DNA from: a virus
Virus record (IMG/VR): IMGVR_UViG_3300030118_006080
Span: 6,978 to 27,282 of that record
DNA length: 20,305 nt
Reading direction: 5' to 3' (one strand)
A model generated the notes under the pieces. That model had not been told where the DNA came from and did no database searches. It saw only the letters and a program-made list of their open reading frames with translations. The translations under genes were made by a program, and so were the position numbers. Shown here piece after piece: positions 6,572 through 14,952 of this stretch (the stretch's first letter is position 1; every line of letters begins with the position of its first letter).

Positions 6572-7123
6572 TTATTGTCCTACGATTGCTTTTGCGACTG
6601 AAGGGAGAATTGAACTTGCATATGCATTAAGTGTTCTACCTTTTAAAAATAAACCACTCCCTCTAAGTTTTGGTTTTGACCCTCTAACAACAACACATGA
6701 TGATGTTGGATATAAGTTAATATTACTACCAAAGAGTTCCAAATGTGAAGTTGTTTTATTTACATTTCCAACTGTTACTTTCTTTCCCTGCAAAAGTAAT
6801 TCATTAGTCGCATCTAATACTATATTTTGTCCTTTTATTCTTATCCATCCATCAGATGCAGTCATGCACATATCTCCATGATGCGCCATCGCAAAATAAC
6901 TTATTCGACCTGATTTATTTTTTAATCCTGTTTGTATCTCTAATGTTTGTTCAGCATTTATAGTTGCTAAACCACTACCATGAAGTGCTTGTTGATATAC
7001 GACACCTTTGTCAGTCACAGAATATAATTGATATGCGAGTTGCCCTCCAACTCCTACATTACCATTACTTTCAATGACCAGATTAGGACCAAAACCATCA
7101 ATAACTCTACTCTCACTTCCCAT
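6572..7123 (-). CDS. Beta-repeat structural protein, possible spike/needle or baseplate component (183 aa)
   Basis: The sequence has short alternating hydrophobic/polar repeats: TINAEQTLEIQTG, MCMTASDGWIRIKGQNIVLD, NELLLQGKKVTVGN, HLELFGSNINLYP. These resemble the beta-helix or beta-prism strands of phage central spikes such as the C-terminal part of T4 gp5. No enzyme motif is visible. The ATG overlaps the stop of the 616-aa gene (TAATG) and is preceded by a strong GGAGGA ribosome binding site 5 bp away. It sits between the hub genes (gp27-like, gp5-like, 616-aa) and the collar fibre, so it is very probably a virion protein. Needle identity is an inference. Confidence 0.75.
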   Translation of the reverse strand: MGSESRVIDGFGPNLVIESNGNVGVGGQLAYQLYSVTDKGVVYQQALHGSGLATINAEQTLEIQTGLKNKSGRISYFAMAHHGDMCMTASDGWIRIKGQNIVLDATNELLLQGKKVTVGNVNKTTSHLELFGSNINLYPTSSCVVVRGSKPKLRGSGLFLKGRTLNAYASSILPSVAKAIVGQ

Positions 7124-11168: not shown

Positions 11169-12122
11169 TTACTCCTTATCCGTGATAACTACTTGTCTTA
11201 ACACTTTCACTTCAGAATTAACGTTTGCAGGATTCTTGTATTCTTTTATCGTATTTGGTAATCCCTCAATATTATTGAATTTTTCATTATCAAATACATA
11301 TCCATTTGGTATCACATTAAATATATCCCACCATTGATTTTTCTTTTCCTTATAAAATCGTGATTCTGATTCATTTTTGGGAACAATTATTTTCTTGCTA
11401 GGGTTTTCTTTATTATGTTTTTCTATCATATCATTTATAAATTTATCAGTTCTTATATTTTCAATATTTCCTTTTTCGTCTGTTATTCTATAAAATGGGA
11501 CAATACCTTTATCTTCATCAAATAAATTTATAATATCGTAAGTTCTACCATCTGAAAGAGTTCCTGAGTCGGTTATTTCACCAAAAGTTCGACCCTGCAA
11601 TTTTTCAGTTTGTTTACGAATAGATTCAAAATCTTTTTGTACTTCATCAATTATTGGTTGTGCTTCCTCAAATTCATCTTCAATTTGTTTGAAATCATCT
11701 GTCTTTGAGTCATTTCTAAACATATTCACAAATCCATTTGCTCCATTGTATATTTGCTCAATAACTGATGTTATAGGTTTGAAAGTTTCTTTTATTTTAT
11801 CAACACCCTCTTTTATTTTTTCCGTTATTCCTTCAATATTATTGACAATAAATCCAAGCAATAAAAGACCTGCAAATGATATGATACCATCACCAAAATT
11901 TTTAATAATCGGAGGAGTAACCCCTCTTATTTTGTTTATTGATCTTTTAAAAGTAGAATTTTTTTCTAATTTTTCTTTTTTTTGATTCCGTATCTTGAGG
12001 AAAGTTTGACGCTCTTTTAGTTTTTGTCTTTTTATTTTTATTTTACTCAACGAATTAGTTGCTCTAGTAAGAATACTTCGTAGATTAGTTGATGTTATTT
12101 TTATTTTTTCTAGTTCTTCCAT
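11169..12122 (-). CDS. Tape-measure-like coiled-coil protein B (317 aa)
   Basis: Residues 1-66 are a highly basic coiled coil (KIKIKRQKLKERQTF, RNQKKEKLEKN). Residues 79-96 form one hydrophobic segment ending GFIVNNI, followed by a charged helix to about 115. The rest is charged and Asn/Lys/Glu-rich, partly helical (160-175), with a likely small folded domain near 185-270 (GRTYDIINLFDEDKGIVPFY, WWDIFNVIPNGYVF). This layout of coiled coil, hydrophobic helix and charged tail resembles tape-measure or tail-tube-lumen proteins, and the gene lies in the hub cluster between protein A and gp27-like. T4 gp29 has 590 aa. A structural role is probable; the exact T4 counterpart (gp28 or gp29) is not settled. 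Confidence 0.72.
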   Translation of the reverse strand: MEELEKIKITSTNLRSILTRATNSLSKIKIKRQKLKERQTFLKIRNQKKEKLEKNSTFKRSINKIRGVTPPIIKNFGDGIISFAGLLLLGFIVNNIEGITEKIKEGVDKIKETFKPITSVIEQIYNGANGFVNMFRNDSKTDDFKQIEDEFEEAQPIIDEVQKDFESIRKQTEKLQGRTFGEITDSGTLSDGRTYDIINLFDEDKGIVPFYRITDEKGNIENIRTDKFINDMIEKHNKENPSKKIIVPKNESESRFYKEKKNQWWDIFNVIPNGYVFDNEKFNNIEGLPNTIKEYKNPANVNSEVKVLRQVVITDKE

Positions 12123-12125
12123 GTT

Positions 12126-13406
12126 TTAAGTATATACAAGATTATCAAATCCAAATAAGATAGGAACCTCATTCATGAGAGCATTATTATTATTTGTCGA
12201 ACTCACACGAATAACCTGAGTTGCTGAAATATTATTCTTTTGATCTATTGTTTTCTTAGTTCTCATGTCTATAGGTGGTAAATCATCAAAAGTAAAGGTA
12301 ACTGGATTACCACTGTTCATTGCATATAATTTTTCTAATCCTATCTTATCAACCGCAGATTTTTGTAGTACAAATTCTCCAGCATGAACTCTACCAACTC
12401 CACTTGGATTATAACCACCTCTATGAAAATCTCTACCTTTTTTTAATATTGATTCTTCATAACTTGCTCCAGACTCTATTTTTTCAAAATCAATTTTTTG
12501 TCTATATTCTCCATCAAAATCTGGAGAACCCATACCTCCAGTTTGTAAAAATTTAATATCTTTTTTAAGAGCTGCTATAAGTCCTGGTCTTTGTAATAAA
12601 ATATTTTTTGATGTTTCTGCATCTAACTCTGCTTGTTTTTGTGCTATTAATTTATCTCTATTTGCTTTTGTGACTCCACCCATTTGTTCTAATAGAGTTA
12701 AATTTTTCATAACATAAGGATCTAATCTATTATAAAGACCAGGACCAAAAAATAAAGCTGCCGCTATAAATGCCTTTGAGAAAACAACTTTTAATAAAAA
12801 TTTACCAAGACCTAAAAGTAGTTTTACTGTTCCTAATAATTTTAATGCAAGTAAACCTCCACCAATAGCTGCAACCAATTTCCAATTCTTAGTTGTCCAA
12901 TCGAATACACTTTTTATCCCCTCCTGTAAATCTTCATTAAAAGCAATATTATTAATTAAAAATCCAGTGCCCAAAATAGTAGCAAGTTCAAATAACTTAC
13001 TAAAGATACTTTGGAATGGTTTTGATATGGCCCCTGTCAAACCTTTAGCAAATTTTGATGTTTTTTTACTCTCTAACCTTTCCTCCTTTAAATCTCTTTT
13101 TAGTTTATCACTATCTTTTCTTTCTCTTTCAAGTAATTCCCTTTGCTCTTTTAATCTTGAACTAAAATCCTTTTCTAACTGTGATGCAACATCAGTTAAA
13201 ATAGCATTTGTTTGAAGCATCGACTCTTGCATAGAGTCAATTTTTGGAGTTATACCTTCACTTATCTTTGCATCTTGTCTAGTAACTATCCTTCTTAAAA
13301 TAGTTATTTTTTCAGTATTTTTAGCGACCTGATTCGATAAATTACCACTACCAAGTTTAAAAGTAGTTTTGTTAATTTTAGGAGTTGTTACTGTATCAGG
13401 TTCCAC
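12126..13406 (-). CDS. Tape-measure-like protein A (426 aa, GTG start)
   Basis: The start is GTG at 13406, with an AAAGG ribosome binding site 9 bp upstream; it overlaps the preceding 58-codon ORF by 11 bp. Residues 76-118 form a charged coiled coil (QREL..RERKDSDKLKRDLKEER). Hydrophobic segments lie at 138-154 (ending GTGFLINNI) and 177-223. Near 328-364 is a motif common at the end of phage tape measures: HRGGYNPSGVGRVHAGEFVL, followed by AVDKIGLEKLYAMN. The gene directly follows gp26 and its -1 frame ORF, the canonical place of a tape measure after tail-assembly chaperones. It would set tail length inside the tube. It is short for a sole tape measure, so it may act with protein B. Confidence 0.76.
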   Translation of the reverse strand: MEPDTVTTPKINKTTFKLGSGNLSNQVAKNTEKITILRRIVTRQDAKISEGITPKIDSMQESMLQTNAILTDVASQLEKDFSSRLKEQRELLERERKDSDKLKRDLKEERLESKKTSKFAKGLTGAISKPFQSIFSKLFELATILGTGFLINNIAFNEDLQEGIKSVFDWTTKNWKLVAAIGGGLLALKLLGTVKLLLGLGKFLLKVVFSKAFIAAALFFGPGLYNRLDPYVMKNLTLLEQMGGVTKANRDKLIAQKQAELDAETSKNILLQRPGLIAALKKDIKFLQTGGMGSPDFDGEYRQKIDFEKIESGASYEESILKKGRDFHRGGYNPSGVGRVHAGEFVLQKSAVDKIGLEKLYAMNSGNPVTFTFDDLPPIDMRTKKTIDQKNNISATQVIRVSSTNNNNALMNEVPILFGFDNLVYT

Positions 13407-13572
13407 GTTGTTGTGCCTTTAAGTTTTCTTCTTCAATATATTGTTGAAGCATTGACAAATAGATTTCCCTCTCCCAAGGAATCATGTTTTCAATCTCAGT
13501 TAATGAATATTTATGATGCTGAATCAGGGCAAAATTAATTTTATAGTATGACTCTAGATTCGTATGAGCCAT
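13396..13572 (-). CDS. 58-codon ORF in the -1 frame of gp26: gp51-position protein or frameshift extension of gp26
   Basis: The ORF runs from ATG at 13572 to TGA at 13396-13398 (58 aa, starting MAHTNLESYYKINFALIQHH, then IENMIPWEREIYLSMLQQYI). It is helical and charged. It starts 2 bp after the gp26 stop and lies in the -1 frame relative to gp26. No clear Shine-Dalgarno precedes the ATG. The frame stays open back to a slippery U UUU UUC at 13581-13587, so a -1 slip would join gp26 (239 residues), Q-L-S and these 58 residues into a protein of 300 aa. In T4 gene 51 follows gene 26. The IPWEREIY helix resembles C-terminal parts of tail-assembly chaperones in other phages. Whether it is made alone, as a fusion, or both is unknown. 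Confidence 0.72.
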   Translation of the reverse strand: MAHTNLESYYKINFALIQHHKYSLTEIENMIPWEREIYLSMLQQYIEEENLKAQQRGT

Positions 13573-13587
13573 ACTTAGCTGAAAAAA
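13562..13587 (-). promoter_or_regulatory. Candidate programmed -1 ribosomal frameshift site (U UUU UUC plus small hairpin)
   Basis: In gp26 the codons GCT TTT TTC give the heptamer T TTT TTC at 13587-13581, in the phase needed for simultaneous -1 slippage. Six bases later is a 5-bp hairpin, GTATG-GCT-CATAC (13574-13562), at a spacing usual for stimulators. The -1 frame then reads without a stop into the 58-codon ORF. Slippage has not been shown here; the call is from sequence only. Confidence 0.55.
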
Positions 13588-14297
13588 GCAGCTAATCCCT
13601 CCAATACAACATCTGATTCAACATTTGTTTTTGGATTTTTCACTTTGATAGTATGTGTTAATTTTGGCATCGTAGTGAAAAAATCTTCAATCATTGCAAA
13701 TTGTTTTGTGTTCAATTGCTCTAAAAAATCCTCTAATTCTTTTTGAGTTGATTCAGATGCATCCCAACTTTCTTCCTCATTGTATATAACGTCAATACAT
13801 GATGTAATCATAGTTAGAGTAGATTTGATATCATTAGCTGTAGCACCTATTTCAAAATTATTTTCAATAAATGAATCCATTGAAGGATATTTCAATTTTA
13901 ATGATAGATTGTCATCTAATTTTATTATATTTTTATGTTTCCTATCCTTTTTTATTTTGATAAGATCAAGATCAATGGTTTTTTGAACCATTGTTTCATT
14001 ATCATCTGGACATCTAATGTTTACATCAACACTTTCTCCAACAGATTTTGCTCTGACATTTAAAAACAAATATTCTATATCAAATGTAGCGAGAGATTGA
14101 ATTTTAACGTTTTTTGATATAATACATGAATTCAATATATCTACTACAGAATCACTTATTTGTTTTGCATCCTCTGACTCAAGTGCCATGATAAGGATTT
14201 TTTCTTCTCTAACAAGAAAAGGTCTGTATTTAATTTTCTTGTTGTTTGAGGGTAATACCAACTCATAAGTTGGAGTATTAATCTTTGGTAAAGGCAT
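13575..14297 (-). CDS. gp26: gp26-family baseplate hub assembly protein / tail-assembly chaperone candidate
   Basis: This 240-aa protein matches the T4 gp26 (T4_baseplate) family by its N-terminus: LPSNNKKIKYRPFLVREEKI followed by an acidic helix (LIMALESEDAKQISDSVVDI). The pattern of a conserved basic-aromatic strand followed by REEK and acidic helices is typical. It also contains FLNVRAKSVGESVDVNIRCP, a short beta region. T4 gp26 (208 aa) is needed for hub assembly. The gene has a perfect late box 25 bp upstream. Its 3' end contains U UUU UUC (13587-13581) in the X XXY YYZ phase, three codons before the TAA, which could allow -1 frameshifting into the following ORF. Confidence 0.83.
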   Translation of the reverse strand: MPLPKINTPTYELVLPSNNKKIKYRPFLVREEKILIMALESEDAKQISDSVVDILNSCIISKNVKIQSLATFDIEYLFLNVRAKSVGESVDVNIRCPDDNETMVQKTIDLDLIKIKKDRKHKNIIKLDDNLSLKLKYPSMDSFIENNFEIGATANDIKSTLTMITSCIDVIYNEEESWDASESTQKELEDFLEQLNTKQFAMIEDFFTTMPKLTHTIKVKNPKTNVESDVVLEGLAAFFS

Positions 14298-14337: not shown

Positions 14338-14952
14338 CTAACCGTTTACTATATAGCGGTCAAAATTAAATGATACAGATACTTTCAATATATCAGCTGC
14401 ACCATATGAAACAGGCACAGGATTTATTGCTTTTGGAAATACGTTAACAAATCTGTATCTTAAGGTTCTCTTGTAATTTTTTTCAAATTTATTGATGAAC
14501 ATATTATTGCATTTGTATGAGTCTGGATATTGCATTCTTCTATAATAAGCTTGGTCATCTTGTCTTGCAAAACTATTTGAACCACTTGATATATACTCCA
14601 TCCATCCCTCAAATATTTTTAAAAGGGTATAATCTTCATCAATATAAAAAGAAAAATCTATGTCTGTGTAAAATCTTGTGTGAGCATACTGTTGTGGAAT
14701 ACCCATGAAGTTGTCCTTCACCTCTGCAGTTGCTAATGTAGATGTAGGTAATGAAGCATCACTACAAAGAATACCAGCTCTTCTAGATAAAAATTCTTTT
14801 ACATTTGTTATTTTTGTATATCTCGCTAAATATGATTCAACACTAGGAGTTAGAGTTGAAAATGTAACTAAAAAATGATTTGTCTGTGCTAATGGACCTA
14901 CAAGTCGATTAGCAATAGATTGATTATATGCTTGTACTGTTGTCTCTGCCAC
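14338..14952 (-). CDS. Tail-tube-fold baseplate protein (gp54/gp19-like, GTG start)
   Basis: The 204-aa product has the layout of the gp19 tail-tube superfamily. An N-terminal strand (HFLVTFSTL) is followed by the tube-loop block SDASLPTSTLATAEV and DNFMGIPQQYAHTRFYTDID. Then come FSFYIDEDYTLLKIFEGWM, YKCNNMFINKFEKN, and a final strand pair (YRFVNVFPKAINPVPVSYG, LKVSVSFNFDRYIVNG). Among T4 proteins of this fold, gp54 (tube initiator) and gp48 (cap) are at the baseplate. gp48 is present elsewhere in the window, so gp54 is the favoured call, though at 204 aa it is shorter than T4 gp54 (320 aa) and nearer gp19 in length. The GTG start at 14952 has no clear ribosome binding site. Confidence 0.74.
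   Translation of the reverse strand: MAETTVQAYNQSIANRLVGPLAQTNHFLVTFSTLTPSVESYLARYTKITNVKEFLSRRAGILCSDASLPTSTLATAEVKDNFMGIPQQYAHTRFYTDIDFSFYIDEDYTLLKIFEGWMEYISSGSNSFARQDDQAYYRRMQYPDSYKCNNMFINKFEKNYKRTLRYRFVNVFPKAINPVPVSYGAADILKVSVSFNFDRYIVNG

Follow-up and report, generated by a model that had tools for sequence, protein, structure and literature searches.

A probable programmed -1 ribosomal frameshift joins gp26 and gp51 in the tail assembly chaperone locus of T4-like phages

Results

We analysed a stretch of 20,305 nucleotides (the window; positions 6,978 to 27,282 of IMG/VR record IMGVR_UViG_3300030118_006080, a 35.8-kb sequence of an uncultured marine phage of the T4 type) in which gp26 is followed by a 58-codon open reading frame (ORF) corresponding to gp51. 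We conclude that gp26 and gp51 are very probably one tail assembly chaperone gene, from which two products would be made by programmed -1 ribosomal frameshifting of the kind known from lambda G/GT. The conclusion is drawn from comparison of sequences, in which we observe a slippery heptamer, its phase, its conservation, an open -1 frame, a T4 gp51 that is homologous on both sides of the join and the potential to form a stem-loop.

The 3' end of gp26 in the window reads GAG GGA TTA GCT GCT TTT TTC AGC TAA, followed by GT and then the ATG of gp51. The heptamer TTTTTTC (13587-13581) sits in X XXY YYZ phase relative to gp26, as an earlier interpretation made from the letters of the window alone (the sequence-only reading) had pointed out. 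From 13587, the -1 frame runs F-F-Q-L-S-M-A-H... to a stop at 13396, giving the 300-residue fusion through Q-L-S that the same reading described, and it was also right that no evident Shine-Dalgarno (SD) sequence precedes the gp51 ATG. The predicted -1 join peptide of this phage is TNVESDVVLEGLAAFFQLSMAHTNLESYYK; for P-SSM2, the predicted peptides are ENEVVLEGLQSFFR in the -1 frame and ENEVVLEGLQSFFV in the 0 frame. gp26 matches PF12322 with 234.7 bits (curated cut-off 24.5). That gp26 and the small ORF belong together was first hinted at by the 282-column profile phrog_150, which matches both (columns 5-232 for gp26, 239-278 for the small ORF). The homology of the 58-residue ORF is limited to the C-terminal part of T4 gp51.

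A single heptamer says little here, because the genome is AT-rich and gp26 of the window contains three of them in phase; it is conservation that decides. Both gp26 and gp51 were matched by tblastn in about 600-700 phage records, mostly cyanophages. Among the IMG/VR loci (gp26 identity 40-100%), the T run, its phase and the -1 relation are found in every locus with an intact junction. A sample including distant GenBank phages gave 98 gp26 genes, which were reduced to 50 non-redundant homologues below 85% amino-acid identity; 45 of these carry an in-phase T TTT TTN near the end of gp26, and all 44 that are readable past the junction have a -1 frame that continues into gp51 without a stop. Homologues keeping the heptamer and the -1 phase reach down to about 25% identity and span a local GC of 33-60%. 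The sequence-only reading had named loss of the T run or of the -1 phase among relatives as the observation that would speak against a G/GT-like pair; by alignment both are conserved, and the pair is supported by the heptamer, its phase and the open -1 frame. It had also placed the arrangement in one lineage, which proved too narrow, as the pattern occurs in Kyanoviridae, Pootjesviridae and some Straboviridae. Single-query profile scans with distant members returned few loci.

The constraint extends to wobble positions. In the codon analysis, whose 45 rows were selected for carrying the heptamer, the first Phe codon (F238) is TTT in 45/45, compared with 20/45 at F206, 16/40 at F78 and 26/40 at F27, and the preceding codon ends in T (NNT) in every row, though the amino acid encoded is S, D, A, N, G or T. 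The rule also holds in GC-rich phages in which TTT accounts for just some 12% of Phe codons (the ACP17 copy at L094, and DLP6 at L085). One Rhizobium phage has TTT TTG at the slip site, so Phe-Phe itself is not the conserved feature. The runs at the slip site are 6-8 T long, with T6 followed by C in 36/45. Of about 750 other ORF ends, 7 (<1%) have T TTT TTN in phase among their final six codons.

Five of the 50 non-redundant homologues are exceptions: three Ackermannviridae and Vibrio phage K445, which have ATT TTC or CTT TTC, and Stenotrophomonas phage IME-SM1, which has five Ts. We note that gp26 ends in ATT TTC ATT TAA in all four Ackermannviridae loci (L101-L104), with a gp51-like domain in the -1 frame, no heptamer and, in three of the four, no ATG at that domain; a different slip (a single tRNA-Phe moving from TTC to TTT) or another mechanism may operate there. 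K445 (L099:3570-3640) ends gp26 with CTT TTC AAG TAATG, an overlapping stop-start without a heptamer, and its gp51-like ORF lies in the -1 frame. In IME-SM1 (L088:3740-3770), the annotated gp26 enters another frame and the gp51 domain is in a separate frame; the five-T site is either a sequencing error or a real change.

The start codons of gp51 offer a second line of evidence. No ATG, GTG or TTG occurs in codons 1-7 past the slip site in 16 of the 44 non-redundant junctions, and in such junctions, too, conservation of the gp51 protein reaches back to the slip site. With no start codon nearby in these 16, a frameshift is likely the simplest route to the product. Existing annotation starts gp51 at an internal codon in phiAS5, OLIVR6, Mosig, C48C1 and Melnitz-2, and leaves it out in Atu_ph04, ACP17 and phages rabagast and phiEa2809. 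In seven GenBank loci (L083, L086, L095, L098, L106, L107 and L108), gp51 is missing or truncated to an internal start, with the whole domain present in the -1 frame.

T4 provides the third. Its genes 26 (208 aa) and 51 (249 aa) are divergent neighbours (L080:3803-5229), and phrog_150 is covered by T4 gp26 over the gp26 part only and by T4 gp51 over nearly its whole length. The gp26 profile aligns to residues 7-201 of T4-type gp51 (hhalign probability 97.5) and the -1 frame domain to residues 200-246 (hhalign probability 94.2), the two alignments meeting at the predicted slip site (FF-R/Q-L versus VF-K-L). Because the two align end to end and meet at this point, T4 gp51 is, on homology, the natural in-frame version of the gp26-gp51 fusion and T4 gp26 is the short form; the sequence-only reading, which took them for separate factors, has to be revised to short and full-length forms of the same protein. 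The short T4-type gp26 keeps Phe-Phe in several phages, coded TTC TTT after GAG or GAA (T4 gp26 itself has TTC TTT); the slippery run is lost in T4-type gp26, where a frameshift is not needed. In the tree, the short and the long T4-type proteins each form one group and are jointly split from the frameshift types by one branch, whose support (88/69) is not decisive; the protein sequences thus grouped fit one duplication in the T4 lineage. Both T4 proteins have been classed among the hub assembly chaperones; gp51 is required but absent from the particle, and genetic support for gp26 in the hub has also been reported (PMC3004832).

The heptamer of the window is flanked by two further elements, a GGAGG 10 nt upstream and a 10-bp stem that starts 5 nt downstream (z -3.8 to -4; Table 1), so that all three parts of a dnaX-type layout are present: an SD-like element some 10 nt before the heptamer, the heptamer itself and a stem-loop after it. 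The small hairpin GTATG-GCT-CATAC, put forward earlier from the window's letters, does exist, but at -2.7 kcal/mol (z -1.8) it is weak and was rejected as the stimulator in favour of the far better longer stem; the GGAGG is an addition to that account. An SD match of at least 5 nt lies upstream in 23 of the 44 non-redundant homologues, compared with 12.4 expected from synonymous codon sampling, and the Glu codon within it is GAG in 28/34, versus 12/45 and 9/42 for two further conserved Glu residues. RNA across the junction has a more stable fold than that of control windows (mean z -2.1 versus -0.2, Mann-Whitney p 2.5e-7). Cyanophage relatives lengthen the stem to 11-12 bp, and the stems of S-N03, DLP6, OLIVR6 and the L069 locus are similarly placed but unrelated in sequence. 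A stem conserved throughout the family was considered and discarded: a significant stem starting 3-10 nt past the heptamer is present in only 17/44 and is lacking altogether in several lineages. Neither the SD-like element nor the stem is universal among relatives, and the stem-loop is at best a lineage-specific stimulator. An Rfam search gave nothing above chance.

The gene order is tail tube, gp26/gp51 and tape-measure-like ORFs. The position directly before the tape-measure genes, which the sequence-only reading had asserted, holds as far as the tail tube upstream is concerned; the tape-measure identity of the 426- and 317-residue ORFs is plausible from weak sequence matches, the 426-residue ORF having several weak PHROG matches to tape-measure families (best of those E 0.001). 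The GTG start of this ORF lies inside the last codons of gp51 (13396-13406), an overlap of 11 nt; P-SSM2 is similar, with 8 nt. The predicted structure of gp26 has a pLDDT of 85, and its highest-probability match in the PDB is the HK97 chaperone 2ob9 (probability 0.51, E 1.4), a weak match that makes a resemblance of the model to the phage chaperone fold suggestive only. A sequence search of the PDB found no relative, and a PDB fold search with the T4-type gp51 model gave nothing meaningful.

Table 1. Coordinates of the gp26/gp51 locus and neighbouring genes, numbered along the window
Feature	Position	Strand	Support
gp26 (240 aa), putative short tail assembly chaperone	13575..14297	-	PF12322 E 1.3e-69; phrog_150 E 1.2e-75, profile 5-232 of 282
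GGAGG resembling a Shine-Dalgarno sequence, inside gp26 and 10 nt upstream of the heptamer	13598..13602	-	
Slippery heptamer T TTT TTC, allowing tRNA-Phe in both the P and the A site to re-pair in the -1 frame	13581..13587	-	
gp26 stop TAA, two codons past the A-site codon of the heptamer	13575..13577	-	
Predicted stimulatory stem-loop, 5' arm AGTATGGCTC	13566..13575	-	-12.7 kcal/mol
Predicted stimulatory stem-loop, 3' arm GAGTCATACT	13545..13554	-	
Extension in the -1 frame, running from slip site to stop and including the gp51 domain; predicted 300-aa gp26-gp51 fusion	13396..13587	-	
gp51 ORF (58 aa, ATG at 13572), following the annotation of relatives	13396..13572	-	phrog_634 E 8.2e-28; phrog_150 profile 239-278
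Tail tube protein, directly upstream of gp26	14338..14952	-	PF23849 E 5.1e-19; phrog_45 tail tube E 1.3e-38
426-aa ORF, candidate tape-measure protein, overlaps the end of gp51	12126..13406	-	coiled-coil-like and hydrophobic segments by inspection; weak PHROG matches
317-aa ORF, possibly a second tape-measure-like protein	11169..12122	-	weak matches

Discussion

We infer from these data that frameshifting occurs, and with it an efficiency and chaperone roles for the products, and suggest the following scheme. Most ribosomes would end at the TAA of gp26 and release the short form. Some would pause on T TTT TTC, aided by pairing of the GGAGG with 16S rRNA and by the downstream stem-loop, and would then slip back by one base, both Phe tRNAs re-pairing, to make the long form of 300 residues, which ends in the gp51 domain. 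If lambda gpG/gpGT is a guide, the tape-measure protein would be coated by many short and a few long copies, and the C-terminal domain of the long form would recruit tail tube subunits. In T4 and its close relatives, the same two proteins would come from separate paralogous genes, 26 for the short and 51 for the long.

Several observations weigh against this scheme. The clade of the window itself keeps the gp51 ATG at the same position, where separate or coupled initiation is also possible; the heptamer is absent from Ackermannviridae and Vibrio phage K445; and the fold match of the gp26 model to a solved tail assembly chaperone (HK97 2ob9) is weak. Many non-cyanophage members lack a strong stem, and covariation in the stem is slight, one pair being changed on both sides in ten hand-picked sequences of the main class. 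The sequences are, moreover, related, and the counts given above express constraint, not independent trials.

The retained ATG is relevant to the possibility that gp51 is a small protein of its own, translated by coupling to gp26 or by reinitiation two bases past the gp26 stop, with the T run incidental. In the window, and in 27 other non-redundant homologues, a start codon does lie close to where gp51 would naturally begin, in most cases an ATG that follows the gp26 stop at once or overlaps it, and GenBank records list two genes. We nevertheless regard this as very unlikely, and reject reinitiation as the sole route: it leaves the 16 of 44 junctions lacking ATG, GTG and TTG unexplained, reinitiation gives no reason for the heptamer to be conserved at wobble positions, and T4 gp51 is naturally fused through the same point. 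Transcriptional slippage at runs of T or A is known in bacteria, and a site of 6-8 T could in principle give the -1 product in this way. The prevalent T6 followed by C is short for slippage by RNA polymerase, and a conserved codon phase, an SD-like element and a stem-loop all act on ribosomes, which makes slippage in the transcript less probable still. Least credible of all, and already refuted by the alignment, is that an AT-rich genome with a conserved Phe-Phe yields a slippery-looking heptamer by chance: three such heptamers do occur in gp26 of the window, but TTT and NNT are invariant across the whole GC range (a product of synonymous probabilities of about 10^-23 if independent, which is overstated for related sequences), and other ORF ends seldom carry the motif.

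Within the frameshift interpretation, we lean slightly towards a stronger version, namely that gp51 of the Kyanoviridae type is not a gene at all and is made only as the C-terminus of the frameshift fusion, that a dnaX-like signal sets the short:long ratio, and that the T4 lineage exchanged recoding for duplication into 26 and 51 with loss of the slippery codons. On the frameshift interpretation in general, two core genes, annotated separately in hundreds of marine T4-like phage genomes, become one recoded gene, and recoding would explain why gp51 is so often missing or given a false internal start. T4-type phages, with the same short and long proteins from two genes and the slippery codons lost, would be the natural comparison, and the ratio of short to long chaperone would become testable in a major group of ocean viruses.

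Comparison with known systems

The arrangement resembles lambda gpG/gpGT (Xu, Hendrix and Duda 2004) in having a long form with a C-terminal domain. As in the lambda order V-G-T-H, the chaperones stand between the tail tube and the (here putative) tape measure. The lambda slippery site is G GGA AAG and not T TTT TTC; compared with lambda, the C-terminal domain is short (about 60 aa) and gp26 is larger, and with lambda-type chaperones there is no significant sequence match, only the weak fold match to a solved chaperone. The signal itself can be set beside that of Escherichia coli dnaX, which comprises an SD-like element about 10 nt upstream, a heptamer and a stem-loop 5-6 nt downstream. The three-part layout is shared, whereas the dnaX heptamer is A AAA AAG, its protein is unrelated and frameshifting there yields the shorter product.

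Vladimirov, Gautam and Davidson (2022, Virology 566:9-15) reportedly identified the tail assembly chaperones of T4-like phages. As cited in the PRFect paper, that study found that some T4-like phages carry one short and one fused long gene (PMC10885494), and it is cited elsewhere for poly-T slippery sequences in T4-like TAC-N genes (PMC12846349). To the extent that these citations represent the study, its chaperones are of the same family as ours and likewise comprise a short form and a longer one with a C-terminal extension. Its title stresses a mechanism other than frameshifting, whereas most lineages sampled here look like frameshifters. A 2016 review describes G-T frameshifting as widely conserved in long-tailed phages, T4 excepted (PMC5009743). 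In a literature search that covered few subscription papers, we came across no account of absent gp51 start codons, of the GGAGG or the stem-loop, or of slippery codons having been lost from T4-type gp26. In the tail chaperone of Vandenendeviridae and Andersonviridae, the 3' end of TAC-N carries a GTTTTT -1 site, and from there the -1 frame continues unbroken into TAC-NC (PMC12846349); the likeness to our locus is one of poly-T site layout, in different phage families. A tail-chaperone frameshift of this kind is thus already known, and the present locus is one more case.
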